From positions 1-49,963 of the forward strand of contig JAFNSO010000013.1 in the NCBI GenBank assembly GCA_017384945.1: a stretch of DNA of 49,963 nt, given 5' to 3'. A model generated the notes under the pieces. That model did no database searches and was not told the DNA's origin. It saw nothing but the letters and a program-made list of their open reading frames with translations. Source of the DNA: Ruminococcus sp. Its GTDB lineage: Bacteria > Bacillota > Clostridia > Oscillospirales > Acutalibacteraceae. Numbering within the stretch: the stretch's first letter is position 1; the number at the start of each line of letters is the position of its first letter. Of the stretch, positions 6,997 through 49,411 are shown piece by piece. The position numbers were made by a program, and so were the translations under genes.

Positions 6997-8262
6997 ATGA
7001 AAAGAATTCTATCGATTATATGCATATTATCCATACTCACCGCGGCTTTTACATTTTCAGCCTTGGCAGAGACAAATATTTTACAGACCGATGTCAGTCA
7101 GGCAGGCGAAGGCTGTGTGATGGTCGGAATAAAGGGCAGCTATATCGCGGACGCCGCCGCGGCTGTTAAGCGTATTAACGAGCTCAGAAAGGAAGCCTGC
7201 GATGAAGGAGTAAAAGACCCGCGCGACAAAAGCAGAAAGCTCACGCCTGATGACTACAAGCCAATAAGCTGGTCGTCGGATCTGGAATACATAGCAAGAA
7301 TCCGCGCCGCGGAGGCGAGCGTAATCACGGGTCATACGCGTCCGAACGGAAAGGACTGCTTCTCACTTTCATCTCCAAACGGAGTTTCTGGATGGGGCGA
7401 GGTTCTCGCGTGGAATTTCTCTCAAAATATGCTCGACGGCATAGAACAGTGGTACGAGGAAAAATACGACTGGATTAACAACACGGGAGGAGTAACGGGT
7501 CATTACACACAGATGATCGACCCCGATAATCTGTACGTAGGTCTCGGAACATTTTATTCAAAATACGGCGCTTTTCCAAACTGCACATCAGGTGAATTCA
7601 GTTTTGAAGAAAAACTTGATTCAAGTGAATCGAAGCCGCTAAAGGATTGCATACAAACGATTGAAATTCAGAAATCCTTACTGAGTTCACTCAAGCTTAA
7701 CGCGCTTAACGGAATCGAAGAGCTATACCCGGGAAGCAAGATTGAATTAGAGCCAATATATGTTGTTAACAGCGACTTCGGAAGTTCGGCGGTCACGCCA
7801 TTGGAGAGCGTTGATTGGAGCTCCTCGGACAGCTCGACAGTCTCGGTAAGCAACGGTAAGGTCGAGTGTAATAAAGCGGGCAAAGCTGTAATAACCGCGA
7901 CCCTAAGCTCGGGAGATACGGCATCTGTCACTCTGAATATCCATAAGGATCAGCAAAAAATAACCGTAAAAGCAAAAGCTCAGAAGTTAAAGTCAGCTTC
8001 TCTTAAAAAGAAAACCAAAAAAATCAAAAACGCTTTTACCGTAAAAAACGCATACGGCAAAATCACCTACACCATCGTAAAAAACGGAACATCAAAGCAG
8101 CTTTATTCTAAAGTCTCAATAAGTAAAAACGGAGTTATATCCATAAGGAAAGGAAAATACAAAAAAGCGACATATAAGCTAAAGGTCAGAATAACCGCCG
8201 CGGGCAATCAAAGCTTTAGCCGAGCGTCAAAAACCGTTGCTGTAAAAATTCAAGTTAAATAA
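6997..8262 (+). CDS. Secreted CAP/SCP-domain protein with Ig-like and lysine-rich C-terminal domain
   Basis: Start ATG at 6997, six bases after ACGGAGG; 421 residues. Signal peptide 1-24 (MKRILSIICILSILTAAFTF, cleavage near SALA). Residues about 55-190 form a CAP/SCP/PR-1-like domain with IRAAEASVITGHTRPNG, WGEVLAW and TGHYTQM, the conserved His/Glu set of that family. Residues about 225-312 are a Big_2-type Ig-like domain (WSSSDSSTVSVSNGKVECNK). The last 100 residues are the lysine-rich module shared with seven other proteins in the window. Bacterial CAP proteins are extracellular and of mostly unknown activity. The protein is likely retained at the cell surface. The N-to-C order is functional domain, Ig spacer, basic module. 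Confidence 0.88.
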   Translation: MKRILSIICILSILTAAFTFSALAETNILQTDVSQAGEGCVMVGIKGSYIADAAAAVKRINELRKEACDEGVKDPRDKSRKLTPDDYKPISWSSDLEYIARIRAAEASVITGHTRPNGKDCFSLSSPNGVSGWGEVLAWNFSQNMLDGIEQWYEEKYDWINNTGGVTGHYTQMIDPDNLYVGLGTFYSKYGAFPNCTSGEFSFEEKLDSSESKPLKDCIQTIEIQKSLLSSLKLNALNGIEELYPGSKIELEPIYVVNSDFGSSAVTPLESVDWSSSDSSTVSVSNGKVECNKAGKAVITATLSSGDTASVTLNIHKDQQKITVKAKAQKLKSASLKKKTKKIKNAFTVKNAYGKITYTIVKNGTSKQLYSKVSISKNGVISIRKGKYKKATYKLKVRITAAGNQSFSRASKTVAVKIQVK

Positions 8263-8287
8263 TTCAACAAAAAATTCAATAAATGTT

Positions 8288-8316
8288 TTGCAATGGATTT
8301 AAAAATATGATATAAT
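8288..8316 (+). promoter_or_regulatory. Promoter of the BspA-like gene leader
   Basis: TTGCAA (8288-8293), a 17-nt spacer and TATAAT (8311-8316). Transcription should start near 8323, giving a leader of about 155 nt before the start codon at 8479. Confidence 0.8.
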
Positions 8317-8322
8317 AAACAA

Positions 8323-8478
8323 AAATATCCTGCAAAGGGGCTGACAAGGTTGAAAAAACGAGCGAAAGTATTATCGGACTATCGGGCAGCCTTGTCCTGC
8401 CGCGCAAAAGGATTTAATTTGTAGTTTGACGGACGCTGTTACTGCGTCCGTTTTTCGTTTATCTAAGGAGGAATGTTT
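8323..8478 (+). promoter_or_regulatory. Structured leader with internal terminator, candidate attenuator or riboswitch
   Basis: The leader has a long-range stem, GACAAGG (8343-8349) with CCTTGTC (8390-8396). A competing GC-rich pairing is possible between CGGGCAG (8383-8389) and CTGCCG (8397-8402). A complete intrinsic terminator (8430-8455) follows, all upstream of AAGGAGG at 8465-8471. That arrangement of aptamer-like domain, terminator and ribosome binding site is typical of transcription attenuation. I could not match it to a known riboswitch class by eye. Confidence 0.5.
8430..8455 (+). terminator. Intrinsic terminator inside the leader
   Basis: CGGACGC (8430-8436), 7-nt loop, GCGTCCG (8444-8450), then TTTTT. 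It lies after the promoter at 8288 and before the gene start at 8479, so full-length transcription needs read-through. Confidence 0.78.
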
Positions 8479-11400
8479 ATGTTTAAAAAATCAGTCAGCC
8501 TCATGCTCGCTGTGCTCATGACTCTGAGCGTGTTTGTTCTCGCGCCTCTTACTGCGAACGCCGTGGATGAGTACGGAGTGGACAAGGGCTTCGGAAAGAC
8601 CGTTGGTGATTACGGCAAATACTCATACGATGAGGACGGCAATATCCTTATGTCTGTCACAATGGATAAACATTTATTGTATACTGAGAACGGGATATCA
8701 TATTTCAAAGGAACGAACCCGACGAAGATAACCTTCGGCGGCTTACTGCCGGAGGTACTCAGCGTGGGAAAAAGTATACTTATTTCCACAATGATATAGA
8801 GATGAAGGGTTACTGGCCTAATCATAGTCCGATCAAATATAACTTAAATATCCCTTACAGCGTAAAGGAGATAGCGGAAAGATCGTTCTGGGGCTTCGGT
8901 ATATATGACCAAAAGAATGAACTTACCGGAGAGACCAATAGATATTATAACAATTACGGAGCGATCGTAAAGGTGCGCATGGGCAAAAACGTCAGGAAAA
9001 TCGGCTACAGAGCCTTCTTCAACTGCGGCTTCACAAAGCTCATGCTGCCCGAGTCCCTCGAGGAGATAGGCAAGGAAGCCTTCGCCCGTAGAGAGAATTA
9101 TTTAAAGGGTGAGGATTACATAAATCTTCAGACTGTATATATCCCGCCCAATGTTAAAACCATAGCCGAGGACGCCTTCGACGGCAACACGGGTATGACC
9201 ATCTGGGGCTTCAAGGGCACCTTAGCCGAGACCTACGCCAAGGAACACGGCTTTAATTTTGAGAGCGCCTACGACTACACAGAGCTGCCCGACGGTACTG
9301 TAAGCCTCGATAAATGCAATATAAATACATATAAATTCGAGAAGCTTATAGATATACCCCTGAATGTGAACGGCAAGACTGTATCGGAGCTCGGCAAAAA
9401 CCTTTACGTTGCAAAAGATTTCAGAGAACCCGGAGTAGCAACCGTGGGCGGCGTACAGTACGACCCGCCTATCGTCATTCCCGACACTGTGAAGAAGATA
9501 GGCTCTCGGGCTCTTCCTTGGACGTATCAGGAATTGGTCGTCAACCTGAAGAACGACGCGGAGGCTTCATCGACAGCGTTTTCCGAGTGCCACAGCGTCA
9601 CGCTCAACCTCACCGGCGAAGGCAGTATAAATGACAACGCGTTCGATGAATGCAAAAACGTAAAACACCTGAATATCGGCGAGGGGATAAAGAGCATCGG
9701 GAAGGAAGCTTTCATGCTCGACGAAGACATCGAGACTGTGAGCTTACCCGATTCGCTGGAAACTATCGGAGATGAAGCCTTTTATAATTGCTATAAGCTC
9801 GGCGCCGACTCGGCGGTAATTATCCCGAAAAATGTCACCTCTATCGGGGAAGAAGCTTTTTGCGGATGTACGGACTTGAAATCGGTCATCCTGCCCGAGG
9901 GTCTTAAAGAGATCGGTACATTAGCATTCAGCTACTGTACGAGCCTCAGAGAGATAGTTATCCCCGAGAGCGTTACCAAGTTAGGCGTGCATGTGTTCGA
10001 TAACATGGGCAGCGACTTTACTATGTACGTAAAACCCGGCTCCACGGCGGAGGCCTACGCCAAGAAAAACAATATCCGCTATATCTCCGGGATATTCAGA
10101 TACGAGATCTACGGCGGCGATGATTACATAACCCTGACCGGCTTGGTATATGAGCCTACCGAACCTACCGACCTCGAGATCCCGACCGAGTACCTGTACA
10201 GAACGGTCTCGAATGTAATCGGGTTCACTAATATCGACGCGCTCAAGAGCGTAAGGATACCCGCAAGCGTTTTAAACATCGGGATCGCAGCCTTTACGGG
10301 CTGTAAGAACCTAGATTCCTTCGAGATCGACCCCGGGACCACAAAATACTGCTCCGTCGACGGATTCCTTTACAATAAGGACAAGACCGAGCTCCTGCGA
10401 TGTCTTCCGGGCAAGATGGGCGAGGAATATACCGTGCCCGACGGAGTCGAAAAGATAAGCGGTTTTGCGTTCGACGGCTGCGAAAACCTTAAAAAGATAA
10501 ATATCCCGAAAAGCGTGACGGAGATCGACAAATACGTGTTCGATTACTGCCCGAGCCTCGCGGAGATAAATGTTGCCGAGGATAACGAGAGCTTCTGCTC
10601 CGTCGACGGCGTGCTCTACACGAAGGACGGCAAGTCGCTCGTAAAATACCCCCGCGCCAAATCCGGAGCTGTATTCAGCGTACCGATCAGCGTCGATACG
10701 ATAATGGGATCGGCGTTTTCGCGCTGCGGCGAATTAAAGGTGCTTACCGTGCCCGAGAAAGTAACGACCTTCGGCGACTGGGCTGTCTCTGGCGTTCCCG
10801 AGGATTTTGTGATGTCGGTAGAGAAGGACTCCGAAGCGGAGAATTACGCGAAGAACAACAAAATAAAATACGTCTATAGCGAAATACAGTCCGGCAAGGT
10901 CGGCGACTGCGAGTGGGTATTTGACAACACTTCGGGTGTCTTTACCGCCAAGGGTCCCGGAAAGTTCGACTGGGACGACAGCGTTAACGATATCCTTACG
11001 AAAACCAAGCATTTTGTCGCCCTGGACGGCGTAACGGCGATCGGCGATTATGTGCTTCTGAACGGTGAAGAGCTCGAGAGCGTGAGTCTGGCAGGTTCCG
11101 TTAAGGAGCTCGGCGAGGACTGCTTCTCGAACTGCCCGAAGCTGACGAATATAGAGCTGAACGAAGGCTTGGAGGTCATCGGCAGCGGTACTATCGCAGA
11201 GCTGCCGCTCCTGAGCGAGCTTAAGCTCCCCGGTACGCTGAAGGTGCTGAAAGGCTGCTCTAGCCTCGACAGCATTAAAAAGATCGACATTCCCGAGGGC
11301 GTTACCGAGATCAGCGGCGGTCTCTGCGTTCTTGGCTCGGTGGAAGAAATAAGCCTGCCCGGCTCGCTGAAAACCATCGGCGAATTCTCGTTCTCGGATG

Positions 11401-12454
11401 TACCTAAGATGAAGAAGATAACCGTCCCTGCGGCTGTCGAAACGATCGGCGAGAAATCGCTCGGCTACGCCGGCGGAAAATACATGGGCAAGGAGTTCAC
11501 GATCATAGGAGAAGCAGGCAGCGCGGCTCAGAAATACGCCGGGGAGCACGGGCTGAATTTCGAGGTATTCGTAAAGCCCACCGAGCCGACCCAAACGGAG
11601 CCGACCAAGCCCACGGAAACCGAAACCACCTTACCTGTCGAAACGACGACCGAAGCCGCTGAGACTACCGAAACCACAATCCCCACCGACAATCCGACCG
11701 AAGCGACGGAAACAACCGAGACCACAGTCCCCAACGATACGACCGAGCCTGTCGAGACGACGACCTCAGAGGTCAAGCCGACAACTCCCGCGGGCGTTCG
11801 GGTCGTGAACTACCTCCCGAGCAAGGAGCAGTTTGAAAAGGGAAATATCGTCAAGCTCGTGATCCAAAACAGGGACAAGCAGTTTGCAATCTACAATATG
11901 ACGGCCTCCCCGATGATTATTGACGGCGCGCCCGTCTTTACGGCTGAAATCCCCGAGAACACAGACCCGATTACGGTTCAAGTTCAAATCTACAAGGGCG
12001 AAACGTGGGTAGACCAGATAACCCTGACCCCCGAGCAGTTCAACTCAGCGCAGAGTAAAATCATAACCTCCGACGGCAGTGTTTACGGCGAAATAGCCCG
12101 ACCGAGCCGACCCAGACCGAGCCTTCAACCGTCAAAGCCGAAAAGAAAGCAAACCCCGTAAAGGTCACCGCAAAAGCAAAGACCGTAAAACTCAAAAAGC
12201 TAAAGAAAAAGGCGCAAAAAGCCGCGACCTTCAAGGTAACGAACGCTCAGGGAAAGGTGAGCTTCAAGATTACGTCCGCTAAGAAGAATATCAAAAAATT
12301 CCTCACAATCTCCAAAAAGGGCGTACTTAAAATCAAGAAGTGGAAAAAGCCCAAGAAAGGAACCTACAAAATCAAAATAAAAATCACCGCCAAGGGCAAC
12401 GACGCGTACAAGGCGAAAACAGTAACCAAGACGGTGAAAATAAAAATAAAGTAA
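8479..12454 (+). pseudogene. BspA-like LRR surface protein, interrupted by two -1 frameshifts
   Basis: ATG at 8479 (AAGGAGG 7 bases upstream) opens with signal peptide MFKKSVSLMLAVLMTLSVFV. The frame stops at 8799, but the protein clearly continues in the -1 frame, crossing at GGGAAAAAG (8766-8774), up to a stop at 12161. It then continues in a second -1 frame (crossing near 12089-12104) to 12454. The joined product is about 1320 residues. It has many LRR_5/BspA-type repeats (pattern IGKEAF, LPDSLETIGDEAFYNC), a Thr/Glu/Pro linker from about 11580 to 11775, an Ig-like segment, then the lysine-rich C-terminal module. Such proteins are secreted adhesion or recognition factors. The first shift has features of programmed frameshifting; the second does not, so the gene may be a recent pseudogene or contain assembly indels. 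Confidence 0.8.
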
Positions 12455-12476
12455 AATTTTTCAAAGGAGGAAAACA

Positions 12477-15400
12477 ATGAAAAAACTGTTGGCAATTCTA
12501 CTGTCGGTACTGATGCTCGCGGGCGTTCTGGCTCTTCCCGTTACCGTCGGCGCGCAGGTGCAGACAAAATCGATTATGTTTACGGATTACTCCGAGCTCG
12601 GAATCGCTGCTCCGGAGGACACCTATCCGTGGAATCATTACGTCGTATCTCAGTTCGACGACGGAGATATCGTTTACGACACCTACAACGGCGCGGAGTT
12701 TTATCCCGAAAGCAATACTCTCGTGCTCAGTGATTTCACCTACAACGGCGAACACAACTGCTCTCTCCAAATACTCGGAATGGGCAAAATCACCGTTAAG
12801 GTCGAGGGCAATTGCCAGATTTCCAATATGGAGATCATCCGCTCCGACGTAACGATAACGGGTTCGGGAACCCTCAATATCAATGACCCTGTCGAGGGCG
12901 ATTATTGGACAGGTACAGCTGTACGCGTTTCGAACGGAACATTGAAGATCGCTTCCGACGCGACAGTTCACATCATCAACAATCCCGACGTTCCCGAGCA
13001 GTATGAGATAACCCCGAGGCTGATGTCCTTTGAGTGGGCAAGCCAGGACAGTTCTCCCTCAGACGTGTTCTCTTACTACGGCGACGCTTCAACTGAACCT
13101 CAGTGGCAGAGCGAACCCTATGAAGAGGGCTACAAAAAATTCACAATGCTGGGCGACGAGATATCCTTCTATCCCAAGGGCAATGAAGAACAGCCGCAAG
13201 ACAACGATATAAGGGTAAGCCTCTACTACGCGCCCACCGACGAGGAGCTCGCCGCGGGCTACAAATACAGTATCCTGATGAAGCGCGGCGACGATACAGC
13301 CTGGACTACAGGCAACTCCGCATACTCTTACGGAACCATGGCGACCTGCAAGGGACGCGAAATTTTCGGTTACAGATCAAGCTTTGAATTTGCGACGACC
13401 CCTGAGCTCTGGGTGCAGAGATATAAGAATGACAACGGTGAGTACGTTGACTGCGGCAAGGCTGTTACACTCACTAACGTTGACCTCAGAGAAATCGGCG
13501 ATAAGGTCATCTGCCCTGACGGCTCCCTTGCCGAGCTCGACAAGCACACCTATACCTTCGCCTACGCTCCTACGGACAATGAGCTCTCAAACGACGATTA
13601 TTACTTCACCGTATCCGTCAGCAACGATCTTTGGGACTATGAAACAATAGAGAAGGAGATCCCCGCTCCCAAGACTCTCAAATACTACGCCGTGACCGCA
13701 AACGACAACACAGGCGGAACCGAGTACCGCAAGGCGGGCGTTGTGAAAATGGAGCTCAATTTCACATCCTCAAAGGAGCTCACCTTCCACATCAAGAAGA
13801 AGAGCGGAAACTATGACAATACTATAAACTTCAGAGACGTTGATTTTGACGACTACAACGGCATGGTAGCTCTGCCCGACGAAACCGTAACAAACCTCAA
13901 CGTCTTTGAGAATATCGAAGAGGACGACAGCGAGGGTATCGCTCCTCCTCCGGGCTCCACCGAAATTGAAAAGCCCGATCCCTCCGATTTCGATGATCCC
14001 GAGACTCCGTTCGGCTATATCAGCGCGGAAATCGGCGACGACAGAACAGAGATAGTAAATCTTTTCCACTCCGAGGAGGTTCATCCCTACAAGGGCTTGA
14101 GCTACGACCTAAAGACAAACACACTCACTATAAACAACGTAAACGAGCCCGATCTTGCTCTGGGCTTCGACGGAATGCAGCACATCAAGCTCAACATCGT
14201 CGGTACCAACGTCATAAGCGAAATGTGGTTCGCCGGCGCTTATCCCGAGTTTGTCGGAAGCGGCTCGATCACAATAAAACAGCCGTTGAGTAATTACGTA
14301 GACGCCGAGGTCATTGAGGCGGGCGTTATGCCGATCAAAATCGGCAAGGACGTCACCGTTAAGCTCAACGGCGGCAGCGAGGGCTGCGCGACTCTTTCTG
14401 TCGGCAGCTATACTCCCGAATACGACGAGTCCAAGCTCATTTCCTACGACGGCGGCGTATCCGAGAAGCCCAAGTGGGAGCTGCAAAGCAAGGAAGGCGG
14501 CATTTCCGGGAATTGGAGCACCGTTAACAGCATTAGAGTCCGCACAAAATTCGCCGCCGAGAGCATTGTGAAGCTCAACAACGATACCGAAAAGAGATAT
14601 TTTGTTAAGAGTCTCAGAAACGTCGGCTACAACCCCTACAACGCTTGTCATTATTATCAGATTGTTGAAAAGGACGGCTATTGGTACGAGCTGGGCTACG
14701 GCGAAAATTACTGGGGCAAGGACTATATGTTTACGCCTCTTACCGTGGAGGAGCTAAATGAGCTGCCCGATACTCTCGTTGACAGCGACGGAATCGCCAC
14801 CGCGTACCTTGCGACTCAGAGAGATTACGACAACTACGGTTACGTAAAGGACAATAAGCTCTTTGTATTCAGCTCCGAGGGCAGAGTGCGTAACCTGCTT
14901 ATGTATCCCGATTATCCTCAGATCAGCTTCTACGGAAACGACGTTTCTCCCAAAATGATGTTCAGAGCCGTTAAGCAGATCGACGGTTATACACTCGTAC
15001 GTCCCGAGGAGGAGTTCGAGACGATTGATGAGGGCTACGATAAACAGGCGGAGTTTTTGAAAACCAAGGGCTACGAAAAGTATATGAAGTCCGTCTGCTA
15101 TCCCTACAGCTTTGAGTACACTCTTACGAATAACAGCATAACCTTCGGCTCGTTCGACGCTCCCACCGAGAGCACAGCCGCGACTTCGCCGCAGGAAACA
15201 ACCGAGGCTACCGAAGCGACAACGAAGGCTCAAGAGCCCACCGAGGCTACCGAAGCGACAACAATGGCTCAGGAGCCCACCGAGGCTACCGAAGCGACTG
15301 CGGAAACTCAGATAATCACAAAAGCGACAGAACCTATCGCAACAAAGCCTATTGCAACAGAGCCTATCGCAACTGAGCCTATTGCAACTGAGCCTATCGC

Positions 15401-16091
15401 AACAGAGCCTATTGCAACAGAGCCTATCGCAACAGAGCCTATTGCAACAGAGCCTATCGCAACAGAGCCTATCGCAACAGAGCCTATCGCAACAGAGCCC
15501 GAGACCACGGAGCCCGCGGCTACCGAGCCCGAGACTACCGTTCCCAACGAGGACGTTAAGACCGACATTACAAAAGCGGTAGTAAGCGGTATCAAGAACA
15601 AGACCTTCATTGATAAGGCAATCACCCAGGAAATAACTCTTACATATCAGGGCAGAACCTTGGAGGAGGAAACTCACTACAAGGTCAGCTACAAGAAAAA
15701 CAAAAACGCAGGTAAAGCCACAGTAACGATCACAGGCATAAACACCTGCGAAGGAGTTATCACAAAGAGCTTCATTATTTACAAGGCGGCTAACCCGATG
15801 ACCGTCAAGGTCAAATCAAAGTCTGTCGAGGCCTATGCTCTTAAGAAAAACAAAAAGACGGTAAAGAACGCCGTTATCGTTAAGTCATCAAAAGGCAAAG
15901 TAGTTTACTCCATTGAAAAGAAGAAAGATAAGAAGAAGTTTTCAGTCTCCAAAAAGGGCGTCATTACAATCAAAAAGCGCAGTTACAAAAAGAATTCAAC
16001 TATTAAGGTCAAGCTCAAGATAACCGCCAAGGGCAACAATAACTACAAATCCATAGTTAAGACCGTGACGGTAAAAATTAGAGTAAAATAA
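12477..16091 (+). CDS. Large secreted protein with PIATE-repeat linker and lysine-rich C-terminal module
   Basis: 1204 residues; ATG at 12477 preceded by AAAGGAGG. Signal peptide MKKLLAILLSVLMLAGVLAL. The ectodomain holds two copies of a short beta-rich module, near residues 75-150 (SNTLVLSDF to TITGSGTLNI) and 545-615 (TNTLTINNV to SGSITIKQ). The same module recurs in the N-terminus of the 2432-aa protein. Between residues about 900 and 1020 lies a Thr/Ala/Glu/Pro linker containing 11 units of PIAT(E/K). It is followed by an Ig-like repeat (SGIKNKTFIDKAITQEIT to KSFIIYK) and the lysine-rich C-terminal module. The gene starts 22 bp after the preceding reading frame with no promoter between, so it is probably co-transcribed with it. 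Function unknown; surface display is inferred. Confidence 0.85.
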   Translation: MKKLLAILLSVLMLAGVLALPVTVGAQVQTKSIMFTDYSELGIAAPEDTYPWNHYVVSQFDDGDIVYDTYNGAEFYPESNTLVLSDFTYNGEHNCSLQILGMGKITVKVEGNCQISNMEIIRSDVTITGSGTLNINDPVEGDYWTGTAVRVSNGTLKIASDATVHIINNPDVPEQYEITPRLMSFEWASQDSSPSDVFSYYGDASTEPQWQSEPYEEGYKKFTMLGDEISFYPKGNEEQPQDNDIRVSLYYAPTDEELAAGYKYSILMKRGDDTAWTTGNSAYSYGTMATCKGREIFGYRSSFEFATTPELWVQRYKNDNGEYVDCGKAVTLTNVDLREIGDKVICPDGSLAELDKHTYTFAYAPTDNELSNDDYYFTVSVSNDLWDYETIEKEIPAPKTLKYYAVTANDNTGGTEYRKAGVVKMELNFTSSKELTFHIKKKSGNYDNTINFRDVDFDDYNGMVALPDETVTNLNVFENIEEDDSEGIAPPPGSTEIEKPDPSDFDDPETPFGYISAEIGDDRTEIVNLFHSEEVHPYKGLSYDLKTNTLTINNVNEPDLALGFDGMQHIKLNIVGTNVISEMWFAGAYPEFVGSGSITIKQPLSNYVDAEVIEAGVMPIKIGKDVTVKLNGGSEGCATLSVGSYTPEYDESKLISYDGGVSEKPKWELQSKEGGISGNWSTVNSIRVRTKFAAESIVKLNNDTEKRYFVKSLRNVGYNPYNACHYYQIVEKDGYWYELGYGENYWGKDYMFTPLTVEELNELPDTLVDSDGIATAYLATQRDYDNYGYVKDNKLFVFSSEGRVRNLLMYPDYPQISFYGNDVSPKMMFRAVKQIDGYTLVRPEEEFETIDEGYDKQAEFLKTKGYEKYMKSVCYPYSFEYTLTNNSITFGSFDAPTESTAATSPQETTEATEATTKAQEPTEATEATTMAQEPTEATEATAETQIITKATEPIATKPIATEPIATEPIATEPIATEPIATEPIATEPIATEPIATEPIATEPIATEPETTEPAATEPETTVPNEDVKTDITKAVVSGIKNKTFIDKAITQEITLTYQGRTLEEETHYKVSYKKNKNAGKATVTITGINTCEGVITKSFIIYKAANPMTVKVKSKSVEAYALKKNKKTVKNAVIVKSSKGKVVYSIEKKKDKKKFSVSKKGVITIKKRSYKKNSTIKVKLKITAKGNNNYKSIVKTVTVKIRVK
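15333..15497 (+). repeat. 11 tandem 15-bp units encoding PIAT(E/K)
   Basis: Eleven perfect-length 15-bp units, each CCTAT(C/T)GCAAC(A/T)(G/A)AG, in frame within the linker of the preceding gene. Variants alternate ATC/ATT and ACA/ACT in a pattern suggesting duplication of 30-bp pairs. The array is likely to vary in length between strains. Confidence 0.9.
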
Positions 16092-16115
16092 GACGCAAGC
16101 TTTAAAAGAAAAACA

Positions 16116-16162
16116 GGAGCTGTGAAGAAATTAAGGGTAAAACCTCATTTCTTCACAGCTCC
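16116..16162. terminator. Hairpin terminator after the PIATE protein gene
   Basis: 16-bp perfect stem GGAGCTGTGAAGAAAT (16116-16131) with its complement at 16147-16162, followed by CTTTCTTG. It separates the plus-strand secreted genes from the convergent chromate-transporter operon. Nothing else was seen in 16163-16288. Confidence 0.8.
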
Positions 16163-16288
16163 CTTTCTTGTACTGTGCTTTCCGCAAAACGGCGGAATCA
16201 AGAATTTTCTATAGAAGTTGACATCTGTAATTGACGCGGGAACTTCAAAGCGTTTTGCTCTACTGTAATAAACTGACTGCAAAATGAT

Positions 16289-17409: not shown

Positions 17410-17455
17410 TACTTTTCACTTCGTTTACTGCTTTGTTTACGCTTTGATACTGTTT

Positions 17456-17821: not shown

Positions 17822-17865
17822 TTTCCGATCTCCGTAAATCTACATATTTTATTAAATGATACACC

Positions 17866-17891: not shown

Positions 17892-17906
17892 AATCTCTAA
17901 GGTGTT

Positions 17907-34543: not shown

Positions 34544-36805
34544 TTACTTTACCTTGACTTTTACTGTCACGGTCTTGGACTTAGCCTTGTAGGAGCTGTT
34601 GCCCTTGGCGGTGACCTTTACCTTAATTTTGTAGGTACCTTTCTTTGTGCCCTTTTTGACGGTGATCGTGCCGTTTTTGCTTATTGAAAGCTTTTTTGAG
34701 CCGCTGAGCTTTTTGTAGCTTACGCTGCCCTTCGCGTTTGTAACAGTGATCGCGTTTTTGATTTTTACGCTTGACTTCTTTGTGTTTTTAGACTTGACCG
34801 ACTTGGTTTTTGCCTTGACGGTTATTGTGTTCGCCTTTTTTGAAGCCTTTTCGGTCGTAGGCTCGGTGGCGGAGTCTGTCGTCGGCTGAGTAACGGTCGT
34901 CGCTTGAGTAGCCTCGGTTGACTCTGTTGTCGCTTCTGTAGCCGCCGTTGTCTCCGTTGACTCTGTTGTCGGTTCCGCAACGGTTGTAGCTTGAGTCGCG
35001 GTCTCGGAGGGCTCGGTCGTCTCGGTTGTGTCTGTTGACTCACCCGTGAAGTCCGTAACTCCGCTGAAGGTGTGCTGTGAGCTTGTCAGTTCAAAATCAA
35101 CCGAACCGTTCGAGTTGACCTGCTGATTCTGACCGTCCTGACCGTTCGGTGGCGTCTGAGTGTTGCCGTCCGAGTCGGTCGGGGGCTGAGGAGGATTGCC
35201 GTTCTGACCGTCAGAGCTGCCCGAGGGAGCCTGAAAATTGCCGTCCGAATCGGTCGGAGGCTCGGGAGGATTGCCGCCGTCACCCGACGCGGGCTGTGAA
35301 GAATCCGTGCTGTTCATATCGGGAGGTGTCATCTGACCGTTCGGAGCCTGTCCCCCGGGGCCGCCTATAGAGCCTGCGGATGTATAGCACTGCTGAGTAC
35401 CCTTTGTATAGCTTGTAATCGTGGTATAGAGACCCTGCGACTGAGTTCCGACGAGCTCGCCGTCTTTGTAAACGTGGTATGTACCCTCGGTGAGCGCCGA
35501 TGAAGCGAGTACGAGATTTGTAAAGGTTCTGTCCGACTTATACGCTATAACGGGGTTATCGCTGCTGTCTGTTACAACAATTGTAGTTCCCTCGGGGAGC
35601 TGAGAGCCGAAGTTTAGGTAGATAAAGCCCTGCTTTGAATCGTCCTTGACTTCGTCGCTCATATTGCCTGTCGCCGCTACGGTGCCGCCGTTTATGTATG
35701 TACCGCTGTCGGAGTCGATACCTGCGTCCTGACTTTTTGCCGAGGCTCTCGCGGTGATCGTACCGCCCTCGATATAGATATAGCCGTTGGAGTCGATTCC
35801 GTCGCCCTCGTCGGCATCGGTGGAGACGTTTACAAGCATTGAGTTTACGTCAATATAAATCTTTGTTCCGCTTGTGGAAGCGTTGAGGCAGTCGTCGAGC
35901 GAGGTGATCGAGTAATCGCCCGTACCGCCCGTGAAGATGAGGTCGCCCTTTGTCTCTATTCCCTCGTCCTTGAGGCTTACGACCTCGAGCTTGCCCGAGC
36001 CCTTGAAGGTGAGAGCTGTGTCGGAGCTTATTGCGCCCGACTCGTGGAAGTAGTATTTCGGAGCGCCCTCAGCGAGCTTCTCGGCGTCAGCCGTTTCCTT
36101 CGCGAAAATAACCTTTTCCAGCTCGTCCGCAGAGTAGATTCCGTAGTATCCGCTGTAGGTCGCGTAATCGTCTGTCAGGCTGTCCTTGTCCATAAGACTT
36201 GTTTTGCTGATTTTGCCGCCCGAGATGTAGTTCTCTGTGCCGTCCTTGGGGATGATCGTCACGTTGCAGGAGGTGCTTGTTACATCCTTGTTCGCAACCA
36301 GAACAGCGGGCGTCTTTTTTGTCGAGGTCAGGCTAACGTTGTTGAGGATGAGGTTAATGTCGCCCGAAATCGTGTTGGAGTTAATCATAATCATTGTTTT
36401 TTCGGCTGTGCCCGTGAACTCGACGTTTGCCGCAGTGTTGATATTAATAGCGGTTATGCTGATATCCTCAACCTCGATTTCCTTTGTGTCGTCATCGAGA
36501 CTGTATTTTTTGAGGATACCCGTTCCGTCGAAAATAAACTTTGTAATGTAAATATCCGGCAGCTTTCCCGCCGTATACGCCTCGGTGAACTCGTCGAGGT
36601 CGTCCGTTGTGTATACCTTAATCGACTCAGAAGAGCCGTCCTTTGACACGGTAAGGTCGCTCAGGTTGACGGTGAAGTCGGCTGAAAGCTCCGAATCCTC
36701 CGCGAAAAAGGCAACCGAACCCGCGCTGAGCATAAGCAAAGCCGCAAGGAATACTGATAAGGTGATTCTTAGCTTCTTCGGGATTGTTCTCAAACTTTTT
36801 GTCAT
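34544..36805 (-). CDS. Cthe_2159-like carbohydrate-binding beta-helix protein with lysine-rich C-terminal module
   Basis: 753 residues, by coincidence or common design the same length as its neighbour. Signal peptide within 1-36 (ITLSVFLAALLMLSAGSVAF). The ectodomain contains the hallmark region of the Cthe_2159 family, including DEGIETKGDLIFTGG, TDADEGDGIDSNGYIYIEGG and KSQDAGIDSDSGTYINGG. That family forms right-handed beta-helices; the founding Clostridium thermocellum protein binds acidic polysaccharide such as polygalacturonate. A Pro/Gln/Asp linker (residues about 490-560), a Thr/Glu/Ala linker and the lysine-rich module follow. The promoter carries the shared direct-repeat box. Confidence 0.86.
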   Translation of the reverse strand: MTKSLRTIPKKLRITLSVFLAALLMLSAGSVAFFAEDSELSADFTVNLSDLTVSKDGSSESIKVYTTDDLDEFTEAYTAGKLPDIYITKFIFDGTGILKKYSLDDDTKEIEVEDISITAININTAANVEFTGTAEKTMIMINSNTISGDINLILNNVSLTSTKKTPAVLVANKDVTSTSCNVTIIPKDGTENYISGGKISKTSLMDKDSLTDDYATYSGYYGIYSADELEKVIFAKETADAEKLAEGAPKYYFHESGAISSDTALTFKGSGKLEVVSLKDEGIETKGDLIFTGGTGDYSITSLDDCLNASTSGTKIYIDVNSMLVNVSTDADEGDGIDSNGYIYIEGGTITARASAKSQDAGIDSDSGTYINGGTVAATGNMSDEVKDDSKQGFIYLNFGSQLPEGTTIVVTDSSDNPVIAYKSDRTFTNLVLASSALTEGTYHVYKDGELVGTQSQGLYTTITSYTKGTQQCYTSAGSIGGPGGQAPNGQMTPPDMNSTDSSQPASGDGGNPPEPPTDSDGNFQAPSGSSDGQNGNPPQPPTDSDGNTQTPPNGQDGQNQQVNSNGSVDFELTSSQHTFSGVTDFTGESTDTTETTEPSETATQATTVAEPTTESTETTAATEATTESTEATQATTVTQPTTDSATEPTTEKASKKANTITVKAKTKSVKSKNTKKSSVKIKNAITVTNAKGSVSYKKLSGSKKLSISKNGTITVKKGTKKGTYKIKVKVTAKGNSSYKAKSKTVTVKVKVK

Positions 36806-36955: not shown

Positions 36956-36979
36956 AACTAGTGGTTAGAGACCAAATCC

Positions 36980-37170: not shown

Positions 37171-37178
37171 TATTTTTT

Positions 37179-38561: not shown

Positions 38562-38570
38562 AACAAAACA

Positions 38571-38610
38571 ACAGCCGCGGGAAAGGCTTGGTTCCTTCCC
38601 GCGGCTGTTT
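38571..38610. terminator. Bidirectional terminator after mgtE
   Basis: 13-bp stem ACAGCCGCGGGAA (38571-38583) with TTCCCGCGGCTGT (38596-38608), followed by TTCGTTTATTT. It separates mgtE from the convergent five-gene operon. Confidence 0.85.
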
Positions 38611-38633
38611 CGTTTATTTGATTTTAAGCACTT

Positions 38634-40146: not shown

Positions 40147-40155
40147 AATTCCTCC

Positions 40156-42093
40156 TTATACAATCCTTATCGTGAGCGTCACTCTCTCGGTCTTTGAGCG
40201 GTAGAGGCTGTCGCCCTCTGCCGTAACCGAGAGGACGGCCGTGTACGCTCCCTTTTTGAGCGAGCACCTTTTGAGAGTAAGGACACCCGAGGTGAAATCG
40301 AGCTTTCCTGTCAGCTCCTTGCTTGTTCCGTCCTTCAAAACAGAGGTAGTGAGAGCGCCTACGGGATTTCTGATTACGGGCTGATATAGCCTCTGGTCGG
40401 CTTTTTTCAGGTCATTGAGCTTAACCTCGACCTCCGACGCTGAAACCGCAAGGGTATTATCGGCTTTCAGCTCCTCCTCAAGCGGTCTGATTGTATTGTT
40501 TTTGTCAAAATATTCAAAGCTAATCCTCGATTTTCCATTCAGAACATAAGGCTCAACTCCGCCGTAATACTGCGAGCGGCAGACGAGAAGTCTAAAATAC
40601 CCAGCGCCCTGCGGGACATCAAGCTCGGCTGATTCTGTGTTGTTCTTAGGCGGGATGTATGGCGAGAGCGCCGAAATAAAGCTTTTGTCAGCTCTGTACC
40701 AAAAGACGTTGTACATATATGTTTGGTCGCTGACGTTTACTTTCAGACGCTTCATATTGCCGCAGTCAACGTAATTTGAAGCATAGTAGTTACCAGAGGC
40801 GTCGGCGGTCTCGAGACCGTTCTGAGTGAAAATATTTGCGGTTTTGAACGCGCCTTGAGTGTTGAGTTCAGCCTTAAAATCGCCGTCAAAGCCGAGCTCA
40901 AAGCGTATTCTGCCGCCCGAAAGCGACTTTTTGTCGGTACCAGAGGGCAGACTTACGGAAAATCTGAGATATTTTACGTCGTCGGGGAACAGCGTTTTAC
41001 CGCTGAGATTTGTATTTTGCGGGGAGTTATATTTCTCTACAGGAATAAAGCTTTTGTCCTTGTCGTAATAGAAAACGCTGTACGACGCGTTCATATCGGG
41101 TACGCAGGCGTAAAATACATTAAAGCTCTCCGCGCTGAGATAGTCCGAGCTGAAAACGTTTTTTGAAGCGGTTTTCTCGCTTGCTCCCGTTGAGGGCGAG
41201 ATACCGCCCGCGCTCCACAAATCCCCTGCCGTCGTGGTGAGCGGCTGAGAGTTTTCGCCCGTAAAACAAAGCTTGTCGCCCTGCTCAAGCTGAGAGAGCG
41301 TCAGACCCGAGCCGTCAACATAGCGGCATACGAACAGTCTCAGGTATTTCGCGCTCTCGGGGGTCAGGTAGGAGGCGGTTTTGTTTATCGTCGAGCCCGT
41401 TTTGGTTTGCAGACAACCGATAAACGCCTTGTTTTCGTCATAGTAGAAGATGTTGTAGCGGCAGGTGTTGTCGAGCACCGTCGCTTTGACGGAGTTGAAA
41501 CCCTCGCGGGGGATAAAGTCCGTCCTGAAATACGCGCCCGAGTAATCTGAGACCTCGCCGCCCGAAATTGGGTCGAGTCTGCCGATTTGCCAGCAGTAGA
41601 AGGGATTTTTCTTTCCTTTTTCAATCTCAGTCAGACAGAAAACCCTGTTTTTACCGCTGAGTATCATAGGCTCGGTGAAATTCTTGCCGCTGAGCTCAAG
41701 CTTTTTCTTTCCCGCGCAGACAAGGCGCGCGAATACCGAATTGACCTTCGCCGAGGTTTTGCCCGAAAGAGAGGGCTTAGTTTCGCTTGAAGCTGCGGAG
41801 AGAAGCTTTTTGTTTGAGTTGTAGTAAAGAATGTTGTATTTTATATTATCGTCCTTCGGCTGAACGGTGATTTCATCGTAATCGGCGACGCACACAAAGC
41901 CCGAACGGACAAAATCCTCCGAGCCGTCCTCGGTCTGAGCCCCGCTCGTCGGGTCTAGGGAGCCGTACTCCCAGCCGCAGAGGAGCTCTCTTTCGGCTGT
42001 TCCGACGCTTTTTCCCGACGAAACGACCGCGCCCGCCGCGAGGGATGTCATTAGCAGAAGCGCCGCGGATAGTATTATCAGTAGTTTTTTCAT
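40156..42093 (-). CDS. Secreted protein of four related beta modules plus divergent C-terminal domain
   Basis: 645 residues, signal peptide MKKLLIILSAALLLMTSLAA. Four consecutive modules of about 115-130 residues follow, each with W/F near the start, an F/Y..S/T-x-F/Y..., then YNILYYNSNKKLLSA / YNIFYYDENKAFIG / YSVFYYDKDKSFIP / YNVFWYRADKSFIS, then KYLRLFVCR-type strands. I recognise no family name; the modules look like beta-sandwich binding domains. The last 100 residues are a divergent, less basic member of the shared C-terminal module (GAYTAVLSVTAEGDSLYRSK). It lies 13 bp downstream of the GDPD lipoprotein gene, suggesting joint action on a surface polymer. Confidence 0.78.
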   Translation of the reverse strand: MKKLLIILSAALLLMTSLAAGAVVSSGKSVGTAERELLCGWEYGSLDPTSGAQTEDGSEDFVRSGFVCVADYDEITVQPKDDNIKYNILYYNSNKKLLSAASSETKPSLSGKTSAKVNSVFARLVCAGKKKLELSGKNFTEPMILSGKNRVFCLTEIEKGKKNPFYCWQIGRLDPISGGEVSDYSGAYFRTDFIPREGFNSVKATVLDNTCRYNIFYYDENKAFIGCLQTKTGSTINKTASYLTPESAKYLRLFVCRYVDGSGLTLSQLEQGDKLCFTGENSQPLTTTAGDLWSAGGISPSTGASEKTASKNVFSSDYLSAESFNVFYACVPDMNASYSVFYYDKDKSFIPVEKYNSPQNTNLSGKTLFPDDVKYLRFSVSLPSGTDKKSLSGGRIRFELGFDGDFKAELNTQGAFKTANIFTQNGLETADASGNYYASNYVDCGNMKRLKVNVSDQTYMYNVFWYRADKSFISALSPYIPPKNNTESAELDVPQGAGYFRLLVCRSQYYGGVEPYVLNGKSRISFEYFDKNNTIRPLEEELKADNTLAVSASEVEVKLNDLKKADQRLYQPVIRNPVGALTTSVLKDGTSKELTGKLDFTSGVLTLKRCSLKKGAYTAVLSVTAEGDSLYRSKTERVTLTIRIV

Positions 42094-42106
42094 ACTAATC
42101 CCCTCC

Positions 42107-43216: not shown

Positions 43217-43218
43217 AG

Positions 43219-45375: not shown

Positions 45376-45458
45376 AATGTCCTCCGAAGGGCGTTTTTTC
45401 TATTCTATCACAATTATACATTAATGTCATCAGTTTTCGACCAATTTCGTCAACTTCC

Positions 45459-45487
45459 TTGCGGGATAATTCCGAATGTGGTAAAAT
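45459..45487 (+). promoter_or_regulatory. Promoter of the dockerin nuclease gene
   Basis: TTGCGG (45459-45464), a 17-nt spacer and TAAAAT (45482-45487), 28 bp from the ATG at 45515. Confidence 0.7.
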
Positions 45488-45514
45488 GAGAACAAATGAA
45501 ACTTGGAGAAGATT

Positions 45515-46834
45515 ATGAGACACCTATACAGAATATTCACAATCACACTATCGTTATGCCTTATTGCGCCTGCAACCGCTAAGGCATATGGAAAGCTGCC
45601 CGCGAAAAACTCACAGCCTAGGCATATTGTCTGCGAAAGGCTATCGGACGACGCTCTCGCCTATTATACGGGAGATTACTCAATTGAGAGTCTCGAAAAG
45701 CTCAGCGGAGCCGAGGACACCTCGACAAGCCTCGGCGCAATGCAAAACAACGAGCTTTTTGACAGCTTGAGCGCGCTTATGACAAGTACTCAGACCTACA
45801 ACGCGAGCTATTCGGGCTACAAAAGCGGTTCTCTCGCCTATTTTTGGCAAAACACCGACGCGGCTGAGGGCAGCGACAGCTACATTATGTTCTACTCCGA
45901 CATAATGAACGGTGAAGGCGTAAAGCTTAACCGCGAACACGTCTGGCCGAAAAGCCGAGCGTCATTTCACACAAAGGGCGGAGGGTCTGACCTTCACCAC
46001 CTTAGACCCGCGCTGGACTTTCTGAACAACGCTAAGAGCGACCACTTTTTCGGCTACATAAAGGACACACGCCGGGACGGCTATAAAACAGGCGAAAAAG
46101 ACGGAAAAATACTTTACTACGTCGACAGCGCGAGGGATGTTTTCGAGTGCAAGGACGACGTAAAAGGCGACGTCGCGAGGATTCTACTCTACGTCTACTG
46201 CCGCTACAGACAGCCGAACCTGTACACCTCAATGACCGAAAACCTCCCCGAGCCCGACCCAGACGACACTCAGAACACGGGTAAAAAGGTGGTTGAGAAT
46301 CTTGACACTCTGCTGGAGTGGTGTGAGCTCGACCCGGTGGACAGTTGGGAAATGGAGCGAAACGACCTCACCGAGGACGTTCAGGGCAACAGAAATGTTT
46401 TTATCGACTACCCCGAGCTCGCGTGGAAGATGTTTTCAAGAACGCCGCCCGAGCATATGCAGACCCCGTCAACCAAGGGCTGCGCGCACGAGCTCGAGGA
46501 AACATTCCGCAACGAAGCGTGCAGCGACTGCGGCGGCAGCTTCACACTCAAATGCAAATACTGCGGAAACACATACAAAAGAAAGCTTGCTCCGCTGACC
46601 GATTATGACGAGAGTGAAATCCTGCTAGGCGACATAAACGGCGACAAAAGCGTCACAATAACCGACGCCACTATCCTTCAAAAAAAGCTCGCGGGAATCA
46701 GCGTTGAAGCATTCTATTCCAAAGCTGCCGACACAAACCGCGACGGCAAAACCGACATTCGCGACTCGACCCGCCTCCAAAAATGGCTCGCGGGACTGAT
46801 TGTTGACGAGCAAATCGAACAACCGATTGTTTAA
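45515..46834 (+). CDS. Secreted EndA/endonuclease I-family nuclease with dockerin
   Basis: 439 residues from ATG 45515 (GGAGA upstream; a TTG four codons earlier is in frame). Signal peptide MRHLYRIFTITLSLCLIAPA. The nuclease domain carries EHVWPKS (141-147) and DLHHLRP (159-165), the paired motif of the bacterial endonuclease I/NucM His-Asn-type fold. A small Cys cluster follows (CSDCGG, CKYCGN), likely a zinc knuckle. The C-terminal 65 residues are a type I dockerin with two Ca-binding duplications, GDINGDKSVTITDATILQKK and TNRDGKTDIRDSTRLQKW. It probably degrades extracellular DNA while docked to a cohesin-bearing scaffold. Confidence 0.9.
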   Translation: MRHLYRIFTITLSLCLIAPATAKAYGKLPAKNSQPRHIVCERLSDDALAYYTGDYSIESLEKLSGAEDTSTSLGAMQNNELFDSLSALMTSTQTYNASYSGYKSGSLAYFWQNTDAAEGSDSYIMFYSDIMNGEGVKLNREHVWPKSRASFHTKGGGSDLHHLRPALDFLNNAKSDHFFGYIKDTRRDGYKTGEKDGKILYYVDSARDVFECKDDVKGDVARILLYVYCRYRQPNLYTSMTENLPEPDPDDTQNTGKKVVENLDTLLEWCELDPVDSWEMERNDLTEDVQGNRNVFIDYPELAWKMFSRTPPEHMQTPSTKGCAHELEETFRNEACSDCGGSFTLKCKYCGNTYKRKLAPLTDYDESEILLGDINGDKSVTITDATILQKKLAGISVEAFYSKAADTNRDGKTDIRDSTRLQKWLAGLIVDEQIEQPIV

Positions 46835-46842
46835 AATTTTAA

Positions 46843-46872
46843 GGGCAGACCGAAACTGAATTTGGTCTGCCC
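46843..46872. terminator. Bidirectional terminator between nuclease and BspA-like gene
   Basis: GGGCAGACC (46843-46851) pairs with GGTCTGCCC (46864-46872). It sits between convergent stops at 46834 and 46880. Confidence 0.82.
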
Positions 46873-46879
46873 CTGCTTA

Positions 46880-49411
46880 TTACTTGATTTTTAACTTTAT
46901 CGTCTTGGTGAGTGTTTTCGGAAGGTAGCCCTCGTTGCCCTTCGCGGTTATGCTCACCTTAATTTTATATGTGCCTTTTTTCGGCTTTTTCCACCTTTTC
47001 ACGGTGATTACGCCCTTGGAATTAATTTTCAAAAGCTTTTTTATGCTCTTCTTGGCGCTCTTTATTTTGAAGCAGAGCTTACCCTTAGCGTTTTTGACGG
47101 TGATTGCCTTTAACGTCTGCTTTTTGGCTTTGAGCTTTTTTGACTTTATAGTCTTTTTCTTTACAGTCGCCTTGATTGGATTCGCCTTTTTCTCGGACTT
47201 TGTGACCGTCGGAGTCTGAGTCGCGGGCTCGGTGGTCTGCGGCTCGGTTGAGACCGGCTCAGTCACAGTCACTGGCTCGGTCGGCTCCTGAGTCTCGGGC
47301 TGAGTAGGCTCGGTCGTCGGCTGAGAGGTCGGCTCCGTGGGCTCGACCGTCGGTTCGACGATAAAGCCGTTTTCCTTTTCATATTTTTCTATAAGAGAAA
47401 TATTTTCGCCCGTGAGCTTGAAATACTTGTAGTATGACTCCTGCTTGGTTTCCTCGTCATAGAAACAGCCGAAAGCCTTGGGCTCGATGATTTTTAAGGT
47501 CGCGGGAATGTTGACCTCGGTGAGCGACGGGCAGGAGTAGAACGCGTTCTCCCCTATTCTCTCAACGCTCGCGGGAATCTCGACGCCCGCAAGGTTCTGA
47601 GCTCCCGCAAAGGCTCCCGCAGCGACCGCCTTCACGCCGTCCTTGATTTTCAGGACGTAATTTTCGGGCATTTCACCTTTATAACCGATTAAAACGCTGC
47701 CCGCGTAGACCTCGCCGTCGGGTTGATTCTTGAACCAAGCGGTGTCGTAAAGCGCGTTGAAGCCCATTTCCGAAATCGAATTTGGGATTTTTGAAAGCTC
47801 AAGCTTGCCGCATTCCGCGAACGCGAACGGTCCGAGTCTGAGAAGCGTTTCGGGCAGATTGACACTCTCGAGATTCTCGCAGCCCTCAAAAGCTCCGCCG
47901 TTTATTTCCTCCAAGCCCTCGCTGAGCTCGACGGTTTTAAGATTCTTGCACTGTGAGAAGAAAATCATTCCGATCGTCTTAACGCTGCCCGCGATTTTCG
48001 CGGTCTCAACATTAGTGCCCCGCATTCCGCCTGAGCGCAGAGCTGTAACTCCGTCCTCAACAATCAGAGTCTTTATATCAAAATCCTTCCACGGAGCGCC
48101 CTCCTCGGCGTAGTGAGCGGTTTCGCCGTTGCCGGAGATTGTTAGGGTCTTGTTCGCCGCGTCATATTTCCACTCGCAGCCGCCCGTTGTGCCGCTCATG
48201 TCCTGTGAAACCGAAGCAGTCTCGGTCTCCTTGACGACATTGAGCTTAATCACAGCCGACGCGCCCGAGCAAATTACTCTGAACTCGTGCTCGCCCAAGC
48301 CCCAGTGCTCAAAATACTGATTGCTTTCAAAGAAAACGTCCTCCTTCTCGTACAGCTTTTCGCCGTCCTTCGAGGTGTAGGCAAAGCGGCTTCGACTGTC
48401 GTCCCAAGCGCAGACGTAATCAACTGCGCCCTTGTCGCCCTTGTAGTGAATCGTGAGAACGTCCTTATCGAAAACAGGCACCCAATATTCAAAATACTCG
48501 ACGCCGTTTTCGTCCTTTTTCACGGTGCCGTTTTTGCCCTCTGCAAACTCCGCGGGCGACGCGCTTTTGTACTCAATCGACTCAATCGGACTCTCGACAA
48601 CCTTGACGTTGAAGGTGTCGGACAAGCCGAAATAGCTAATCGTAATCGGATATGTGCCCGTACTTGTCCAGTGCTTGAAATACTGACCGTCGTCGAACGA
48701 GAGCTTGTTCATATCAAGTGAGCCGCCGTTGCCGTCAAAAAAGCCCGCCTCGCCGTCGCGTGAGAAATAGTAGTCGACAGAATAATCGCCGCACTCGTCA
48801 TCATAAGTAACGGTGATTTTGTCGCCCTCTTCAAACCAGCCTGTGTTGTACAGGAAATAGTCCTGACCCTTGCTGTCCTTTTCGGTTCTGCCCGAAAAAT
48901 TGTAGTACAAAACAGGCTCGCGGTCGGTCGTAAACTTGAACTTTTTGACGGGATTCGGAAGAATCTTAACGGGAATCTCGAACTTCTGCTCGCCGAAGTA
49001 GATTAAGAATTTATTTTCGCCGACGCTCCAGTGATTTGTATCCTGCTCGTCTCCGAAATTAAAGTTCTTGCTCTCGACGAGCTTTTTGCCGTCGTCAGAG
49101 ACGAAGAAATTCTCCGCGCCGTTGCCCCATTTGAACTTATAGCTTACAACAGAGCCGTCCTCATAAGTGACGGCGAGTGAATCATCCTCCTCGACGGGGA
49201 TGTAATACTCAAAATATCTCTGATTATTTTCGTCCGTCTGCCAAAAACCCTCAGTGAACTGATAAACGCTCTTTGTCTGACCGCCGAACATTTCAACGCT
49301 GCTGACCTTGAGCGCCGCGGCAAAAGCTGAACAAAGCCCCAAAGCCGAAAACACCGAAGCCACGATACAAGCGCAAAGCAAAACAGCGAGCGCTTTTCTT
49401 AATCGGGTCAT
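46880..49411 (-). CDS. BspA-like LRR surface protein with three N-terminal modules and lysine-rich C-terminal module
   Basis: 843 residues from ATG 49411, which has AGGAGG upstream; the longer open frame lacks one. Signal peptide MTRLRKALAVLLCACIVASV. Three modules of about 100-120 residues follow, each ending near NHWSVGENKFLIYFG, KHWTSTGTYPITISYFG or EHWGLGEHEFRVICSG, with acidic YED/YDDE loops. Then comes a GGCEWKYDAANKTLTISGNG segment and BspA/LRR_5 repeats (IGENAFYSCPSLTEV, LEEINGGAFEGCENL). A Thr/Glu/Pro linker and the lysine-rich module ending LTKTIKLKIK complete it. Intact relative to its frameshifted counterpart at 8479. Probable adhesin or recognition protein. Confidence 0.87.
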   Translation of the reverse strand: MTRLRKALAVLLCACIVASVFSALGLCSAFAAALKVSSVEMFGGQTKSVYQFTEGFWQTDENNQRYFEYYIPVEEDDSLAVTYEDGSVVSYKFKWGNGAENFFVSDDGKKLVESKNFNFGDEQDTNHWSVGENKFLIYFGEQKFEIPVKILPNPVKKFKFTTDREPVLYYNFSGRTEKDSKGQDYFLYNTGWFEEGDKITVTYDDECGDYSVDYYFSRDGEAGFFDGNGGSLDMNKLSFDDGQYFKHWTSTGTYPITISYFGLSDTFNVKVVESPIESIEYKSASPAEFAEGKNGTVKKDENGVEYFEYWVPVFDKDVLTIHYKGDKGAVDYVCAWDDSRSRFAYTSKDGEKLYEKEDVFFESNQYFEHWGLGEHEFRVICSGASAVIKLNVVKETETASVSQDMSGTTGGCEWKYDAANKTLTISGNGETAHYAEEGAPWKDFDIKTLIVEDGVTALRSGGMRGTNVETAKIAGSVKTIGMIFFSQCKNLKTVELSEGLEEINGGAFEGCENLESVNLPETLLRLGPFAFAECGKLELSKIPNSISEMGFNALYDTAWFKNQPDGEVYAGSVLIGYKGEMPENYVLKIKDGVKAVAAGAFAGAQNLAGVEIPASVERIGENAFYSCPSLTEVNIPATLKIIEPKAFGCFYDEETKQESYYKYFKLTGENISLIEKYEKENGFIVEPTVEPTEPTSQPTTEPTQPETQEPTEPVTVTEPVSTEPQTTEPATQTPTVTKSEKKANPIKATVKKKTIKSKKLKAKKQTLKAITVKNAKGKLCFKIKSAKKSIKKLLKINSKGVITVKRWKKPKKGTYKIKVSITAKGNEGYLPKTLTKTIKLKIK

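Follow-up and report, generated by a model that had tools for sequence, protein, structure and literature searches.

Three described systems are among those closest to the protein domain reported below. In Clostridioides difficile, CWB2 anchors proteins non-covalently to the anionic wall polymer PSII, for which three tandem motifs and a conserved ILL are needed (PMC4973711). In Ruminococcus albus, CBM37 takes the place of dockerins on numerous secreted proteins, which it attaches to the cell surface (PMC4081043), and in Ruminococcus flavefaciens and Ruminococcus bromii the cohesin proteins that are held to be surface-located carry a sortase signal (PMC4081043, PMC5814915). Here we analysed a 49,963-nucleotide stretch of a Ruminococcus sp. 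genome (assembly GCA_017384945.1, contig JAFNSO010000013.1; the whole stretch is called the window), in which eight proteins end in a homologous C-terminal domain of about 105 residues, hereafter the module. Its C-terminal position, its alternation with other anchors, its fusion to cohesins and its positive charge suggest that the module is likely a non-covalent cell-surface anchor, with the surface location drawn from context. The anchor probably grips a wall polyanion through its lysines, the ligand and the electrostatic mechanism being the least certain part. No database model, and no paper among those under open licence, was found to describe the module as an anchor.

All eight modules lie where the original prediction had placed them. 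A profile built from 29 same-genome copies outside the window was searched against 1,874 open reading frames (ORFs) from the window and 252 kb of other genome stretches, which were chosen, are module-free and so carry no information on module frequency; it recovered all eight window copies (E 5.1e-41 to 5.3e-17) and gave no further match below E 0.5. BLASTP within a database of the eight sequences matched 28 of 28 pairs; the weakest pair has an E-value of 4.5e-10 when the default composition correction is off and of 1.6e-4 when it is on. The ectodomains differ, as had also been claimed. On the forward strand, modules end a CAP and Big_2 protein (6997-8262, module 7930-8259; CAP 43.7 bits, Big_2 slightly under its cut-off), a leucine-rich repeat (LRR) gene referred to as 8479 and a 1204-aa protein (12477-16091, module 15765-16088). 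On the reverse strand, they end a 2432-aa protein with a Thr/Glu/Pro linker before the module (19640-26938, module 19643-19969; CarboxypepD_reg 61.5 bits), a beta-helix protein (32114-34375, module 32117-32428; Beta_helix 29.8 bits), a Cthe_2159-like protein (34544-36805, module 34547-34858; Cthe_2159 62.3 bits), the protein at 40156-42093 (module 40162-40485) and a second LRR protein (46880-49411, module 46883-47209; LRR_5 114 bits). The ectodomains at 12477 and 40156 have no Pfam family above its cut-off. The 8479 gene is spread over three frames, whose pieces were analysed separately and unjoined: ORFs 8473-8799 and 8802-12161, the latter with LRR_5, are followed by a third frame that ends at 12454 and holds the module (12125-12451). 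This split gene (8473-12454, forward strand) may be a pseudogene or may reflect assembly errors. The adjacent reverse-strand genes 32114-34375 and 34544-36805 carry unlike ectodomains and modules that are 82.6% identical, pointing to a recent copying event between genes.

The domain had been called lysine-rich, a description that fits seven of the eight copies, whose last 95 residues have a net charge between +27 and +39; the copy at 40156 has 16 K/R and 10 D/E in the same span, for a net charge of +6. That lysine-poor copy was recovered at E 5e-17 by the profile free of window copies, the cadherin match described below vanishes on shuffling, and no further match below E 0.5 turns up in the 252 kb from elsewhere in the genome, so we rejected a composition artefact as the source of the homology. 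Nor is AT-rich codon bias the source of the module lysines, since the GC content of the window is 48.7%.

Throughout the genome of the window (2.08 Mb, 106 contigs), a profile of the eight window copies found 37 modules at E<=0.01, and a broader profile found 39 at E<=1e-3. Among the 37, 31 end at the last codon, five end one residue earlier and one is followed by 85 residues; for a randomly placed domain of 100 residues, the chance of ending no more than 2 residues from the stop is about 0.8%. At loci of other genomes, 27 of 28 complete distinct ORFs stop 0-2 residues past the module, and in a collection of named genomes 96 of 100 module ORFs stop 0-1 residue past it. The claim that the domain always stops at the C-terminus thus needs only slight softening, as the protein continues in 1/37, 1/28 and 4/100 cases, and internal copies are rare. 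The exception among the 28 has two module copies followed by a CxxCxGxG tail, as in the sole same-genome exception, and the four in the named collection are two genes, each found in two actinobacterial metagenome-assembled genomes (MAGs). Two or three module copies are present in 13 of the 100 ORFs. By a crude hydropathy rule, a signal-peptide-like start is present in 33 of the 37 same-genome proteins, the remaining four including the split gene, and in 73 of the 100 named-collection ORFs, of which 14 others are cut at the N-terminus and 13 lack such a start; these starts serve as a crude gauge of whether the module also occurs on cytosolic proteins.

Two side observations concern what follows a module. 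The post-module tails with CxxCxGxG zinc-finger-like motifs lie at C102:28836-29159 (locus L034, in the genome of the window) and on G156:C125 (L091). The two genes from Coriobacteriaceae and actinobacterial MAGs (L143, L152) have two or three modules and then another domain of 118 or 267 residues, and are the sole internal module arrays in the named collection.

The distribution of the module is patchy. In 100 genomes of the same genus, that of the window included, it was found in 21 at E<=1e-3, eight with 18 to 39 copies and thirteen with 1 to 11, and was absent from 79. At E<=1e-6, matches were obtained in 2 of 150 family genomes and 2 of 291 class genomes, the genome of the window being one of each pair, so a wide distribution was not borne out. 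The named-genome scan returned 139 relatives, of which 80 non-redundant ones were retained; by record title they come from Ruminococcus, Eubacterium, Lachnospiraceae, Mogibacterium, other Clostridia and one Bacteroides, as well as from the actinobacterial Coriobacteriales, Atopobiaceae, Eggerthellaceae and Adlercreutzia. Of the 37 same-genome copies, 33 were used in alignment A2, and of the 80 non-redundant named-genome copies, 32 were used in alignment A4.

Known anchors are largely missing from the proteins that carry the module. The C-terminal hydrophobic segment of a sortase (LPXTG) substrate was not found, as a second membrane segment is present in 0 of 33 same-genome module proteins and 1 of 73 others. 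Neither the window module proteins nor the module piece gave a Pfam match to SLH, CWB2 or WxL at E<=1. No Dockerin_1 match was seen in the window module proteins, and no dockerin calcium-loop motif in 33 same-genome and 100 other ORFs. Under a lipobox rule that was refined, by requiring the Cys to be followed by a polar stretch, once the first matches had been inspected, 1 of 33 same-genome and 0 of 73 other module proteins match, whereas 7 of 30 other secreted proteins do (p 9e-5; same-genome alone, p 0.02). In the window proteins, no Pfam or NCBIfam model, those of characterised wall-binding families included, scores above its cut-off across the module.

Two candidate families were tried and rejected. 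NCBIfam NF058595 (invert_tail), a putative C-terminal anchoring domain, resembles the module in name and C-terminal role and differs from it in score and place: it reaches 13.7-19.1 bits against a cut-off of 37, none of its 16 sub-threshold matches in the genome of the window falls on the module, and 14 of 14 control genomes match too. The type IX secretion system (T9SS) type A sorting domain TIGR04183 reaches 14.2 bits, on the 8479 module, against a cut-off of 23. Sortases were found in all 30 genomes examined, whether or not these carry the module, so their co-occurrence is uninformative. We noted in passing that sortase domains lie within ORFs of about 620-760 codons, much above the usual sortase length, as at C82:25332-25862 in the genome of the window and at similar places in many same-genus genomes.

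Related ectodomains end in different devices. The CAP and Big_2 ectodomain of the protein at 6997 was found at eight loci in 7 of the 100 same-genus genomes, including that of the window, with 36-62% identity in the others; the module closes two of these proteins, a dockerin three (confirmed by Pfam in all three), a set of FN3-like repeats two and an additional Big_2 domain one. The Cthe_2159 ectodomain of the protein at 34544 is present in 6 of the 100 genomes, again including that of the window, and the relatives in four module-free genomes (31-35% identity, partial) have a putative lipobox start and neither module nor dockerin at their end. A further relative, in genome G167, is a fusion behind dockerin-like repeats that is cut by the locus end.

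The module is also fused to cohesins. Cohesin matches were obtained in 30 of 30 genomes tested (29 above the cut-off), and in the genome of the window three of eight lie inside module proteins. With at least five more cohesin-module ORFs in five other genomes, the total is at least eight single-cohesin proteins capped by the module, in at least 6 of 11 module-bearing genomes, and all eight cohesins, when cut out, score above the Pfam cut-off of 24.1 bits. Some of these genes adjoin others of scaffoldin-like make-up: on contig C31 of the genome of the window, a cohesin-module gene shares its first four bases with a 1972-aa ORF that ends in cohesin and dockerin, and on contig C71 of that genome, another shares one base with the ORF before it, which encodes CBM26, X25, cohesin and dockerin. 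Among 24 cohesin matches examined, eight are module-capped, eight, two of them from module-bearing genomes, have a hydrophobic segment and basic tail, six have the cohesin at the C-terminus, one is a cohesin-dockerin and one is cut; the regions were picked partly for coincidence with modules, so that 8 of 24 is not a frequency. ScaE of R. flavefaciens and Sca2 and Sca5 of R. bromii likewise combine a cohesin with a C-terminal surface attachment device, which in those proteins is a sortase signal and here would be the module (PMC4081043, PMC5814915). Since the surface cohesin proteins of both species have that signal, the module occupies the position of an anchor. The layout of an anchoring scaffoldin, a cohesin with a C-terminal module near scaffoldin genes, is thus present, and the module would supply the surface device. 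As an observation of its own, the two gene pairs (locus L053, 1-3696, on C71; locus L311, 2485-9761, on C31, with LRR in the first ORF) look like parts of an amylosome-type system.

Net charge is positive in 132 of 132 aligned copies, with a median of +31 in the genome of the window and +27 in others. The ectodomains are mostly acidic, with a median of -7.6 per 100 residues in 32 same-genome proteins and -6.2 in 75 proteins elsewhere, where values range up to +12.6. K/R exceeds 80% in six alignment columns, three of them in a KKGT-KKGTY hairpin and one at the last residue (83% K), and acidic residues never exceed 17% in any module column across the 132 copies. This pattern fits non-covalent binding of an anionic envelope polymer of the kind described for CWB2 (PMC4973711).

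The nearest named family is Pfam Cadherin (PF00028), matched by 23 of 40 diverse copies at E<=0.1 (best 1.4e-6), while fewer copies match other immunoglobulin (Ig)-type families such as RibLong (16 copies) and MG2 (14 copies). When ten copies were scanned singly, nine matched Cadherin and one passed the gathering cut-off (29.1 against 28.8 bits), whereas none of ten shuffled modules matched Cadherin and a single chance match went to a different family. A PDB search with a 40-copy profile found cadherins and BT_4661 at whole-sequence E-values of 1e-4 to 3e-4, the best single stretch being in cadherin-23 (E 0.027); with a profile of the eight window copies it found no credible relative (best E 0.015). 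By its nearest family, and judged from sequence alone, the module would be a small cadherin-type Ig-like beta-sandwich. It departs from Cadherin in that most copies score under the gathering cut-off and in the calcium-binding acidic motifs of cadherins, LDRE and AxD, where it has lysines or a gap: the LDYE of cadherin-23 falls in an alignment gap between the lysine pairs of KKGT-KKGTY, and the Asp of AxD/ATD is replaced by K or A in 34 of 37 same-genome copies.

In the mechanism that we propose, a signal peptide would export the protein, a linker, often Thr/Glu/Pro-rich, would span the wall, and the folded C-terminal domain would bind an anionic envelope polymer via outward-facing lysines, chiefly those of the hairpin K-K-G-T-K-K-G-T-Y. 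The module would stand in for lipoboxes, dockerins and membrane or sortase tails, and a single-cohesin protein that carries it would act as an anchoring scaffoldin, displaying partners that bear dockerins. CBM37, which we liken to the module by description only, would be its closest functional parallel; it differs in binding polysaccharides and in being mostly found on carbohydrate-active enzymes (PMC4081043).

The strongest competitor to this proposal, which we nonetheless consider unlikely, is that the module attaches, in the manner of a carbohydrate-binding module (CBM), to an anionic or polysaccharide substrate outside the cell, such as pectin, mucin, a starch granule or host matrix, in which case the cohesin fusions would resemble CipA as scaffoldins targeted to a substrate. 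Polysaccharide binding has been reported for cadherin-type domains of a marine bacterium, and CBM26 is encoded in the gene directly before a cohesin-module gene. A cohesin together with a substrate-binding CBM is, moreover, a known scaffoldin layout (PMC4081043), which counts for substrate binding and against surface anchoring. A substrate-binding role is harder to reconcile with the very different ectodomains that carry the module, many without a carbohydrate link, and with the putative lipid anchoring of one and the same ectodomain family where the module is absent, or the dockerin that stands in its place on CAP relatives. Less probable again is that the module serves as a generic Ig-like end cap or spacer that has no role in localisation and spread as genes and domains were copied. 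The nearest families are indeed common cadherin- and Ig-type folds, the nearly alike modules on unlike neighbouring ectodomains point to spread by copying, and one CAP relative ends simply in Big_2; a spacer, however, need not alternate with dockerins and lipoboxes or cap cohesins, nor keep its lysine columns and almost no acidic residues over 132 copies.

The original prediction had left open whether the module sorts proteins or retains them at the wall. If a dedicated machine read the module as a C-terminal signal for secretion or sorting, in the way of the C-terminal domain of the type IX system, this would account for the near-strict C-terminal position and the conserved last lysine, but we regard this reading as very improbable. 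Tandem and a few internal copies exist, which makes a sorting signal proper less likely; two other proteins continue into a CxxCxGxG tail after the module, the T9SS model stays below its cut-off, and no partner gene was identified, although no genome-wide co-occurrence search was made and sortases occur regardless of the module. Retention at the wall or surface fares better, in keeping with the alternation with dockerins and lipoboxes and with the cohesin-module genes beside cohesin-dockerin genes. The suggested attraction to a polyanion fits the net positive charge, which is low in the copy at 40156.

Several points weigh against the module being a surface anchor. That same copy at 40156 has lost most of its positive charge. 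The swap cases are few and involve relatives at only 31-62% identity; two CAP relatives end in FN3-like tails (one matching fn3 under the cut-off, the other matching nothing) and one in Big_2. With a looser lipobox rule, 4 of 33 same-genome and 2 of 73 other module proteins match, against 9 of 30 other secreted proteins (same-genome against other secreted, p 0.12), and the stricter rule was set after the fact. The mean number of dockerins per genome is lower in 11 module-bearing than in 19 module-free genomes (22.5 against 46.3, p 0.001), which counts for an anchor, but the comparison is uncorrected for relatedness and involves module-free genomes picked for completeness. Three of the eight cut-out cohesins clear their cut-off by no more than 1 bit. 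When whole cohesin-module proteins were scanned with Pfam, the cohesin went unrecognised in 5 of 6, perhaps owing to the composition filter, and querying the PDB with the C71 cohesin gave nothing at E<=0.01. Finally, cohesin-like proteins that end in a membrane tail are present in two module-bearing genomes as well.

Beyond anchoring as such, we put forward more tentatively, as a reading that may or may not hold, that an unnamed class of non-covalent surface anchor is common to gut Clostridia and Coriobacteriia, namely a cadherin-type domain in which a lysine hairpin that grips an anionic envelope polymer has replaced the calcium-binding loop. In this reading, certain lineages of a single genus would have transferred dozens of their surface proteins, together with the anchoring scaffoldins of their cohesin-dockerin complexes, to this anchor, replacing sortase, lipid and dockerin attachment. 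The module proteins have no anchor recognised by the libraries searched and would be read as freely secreted; those with a single cohesin would fall into a class that PMC11557425 calls single-cohesin proteins of unknown function. If the proposal is true, the surface proteome of many uncultured gut bacteria needs redrawing, and the attachment of cellulosome- or amylosome-like complexes that lack known signals becomes directly testable.

Further features of the window were noted alongside the modules. A secreted Endonuclease I protein (45503-46834, forward strand; Endonuclease_1 108.3 bits) has a dockerin-bearing C-terminal part at 46461-46834, the start being approximate (Dockerin_1 41.4 bits, residues 375-427); this dockerin is an alternative C-terminal tag within the same window, and the nuclease may attach to a cohesin complex. 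A second recurring domain of about 100 residues, with the motif YDMTASPMI..PVYTAEIP, lies N-terminal of the linker and module at about 11800-12100 of the window (forward strand) and in at least seven other same-genome module proteins; one copy matches CBM26 under its cut-off (22.0 against 28.1 bits). A short ORF at 5914-6378 (forward strand) may resemble the start of a replication-initiator-like protein.

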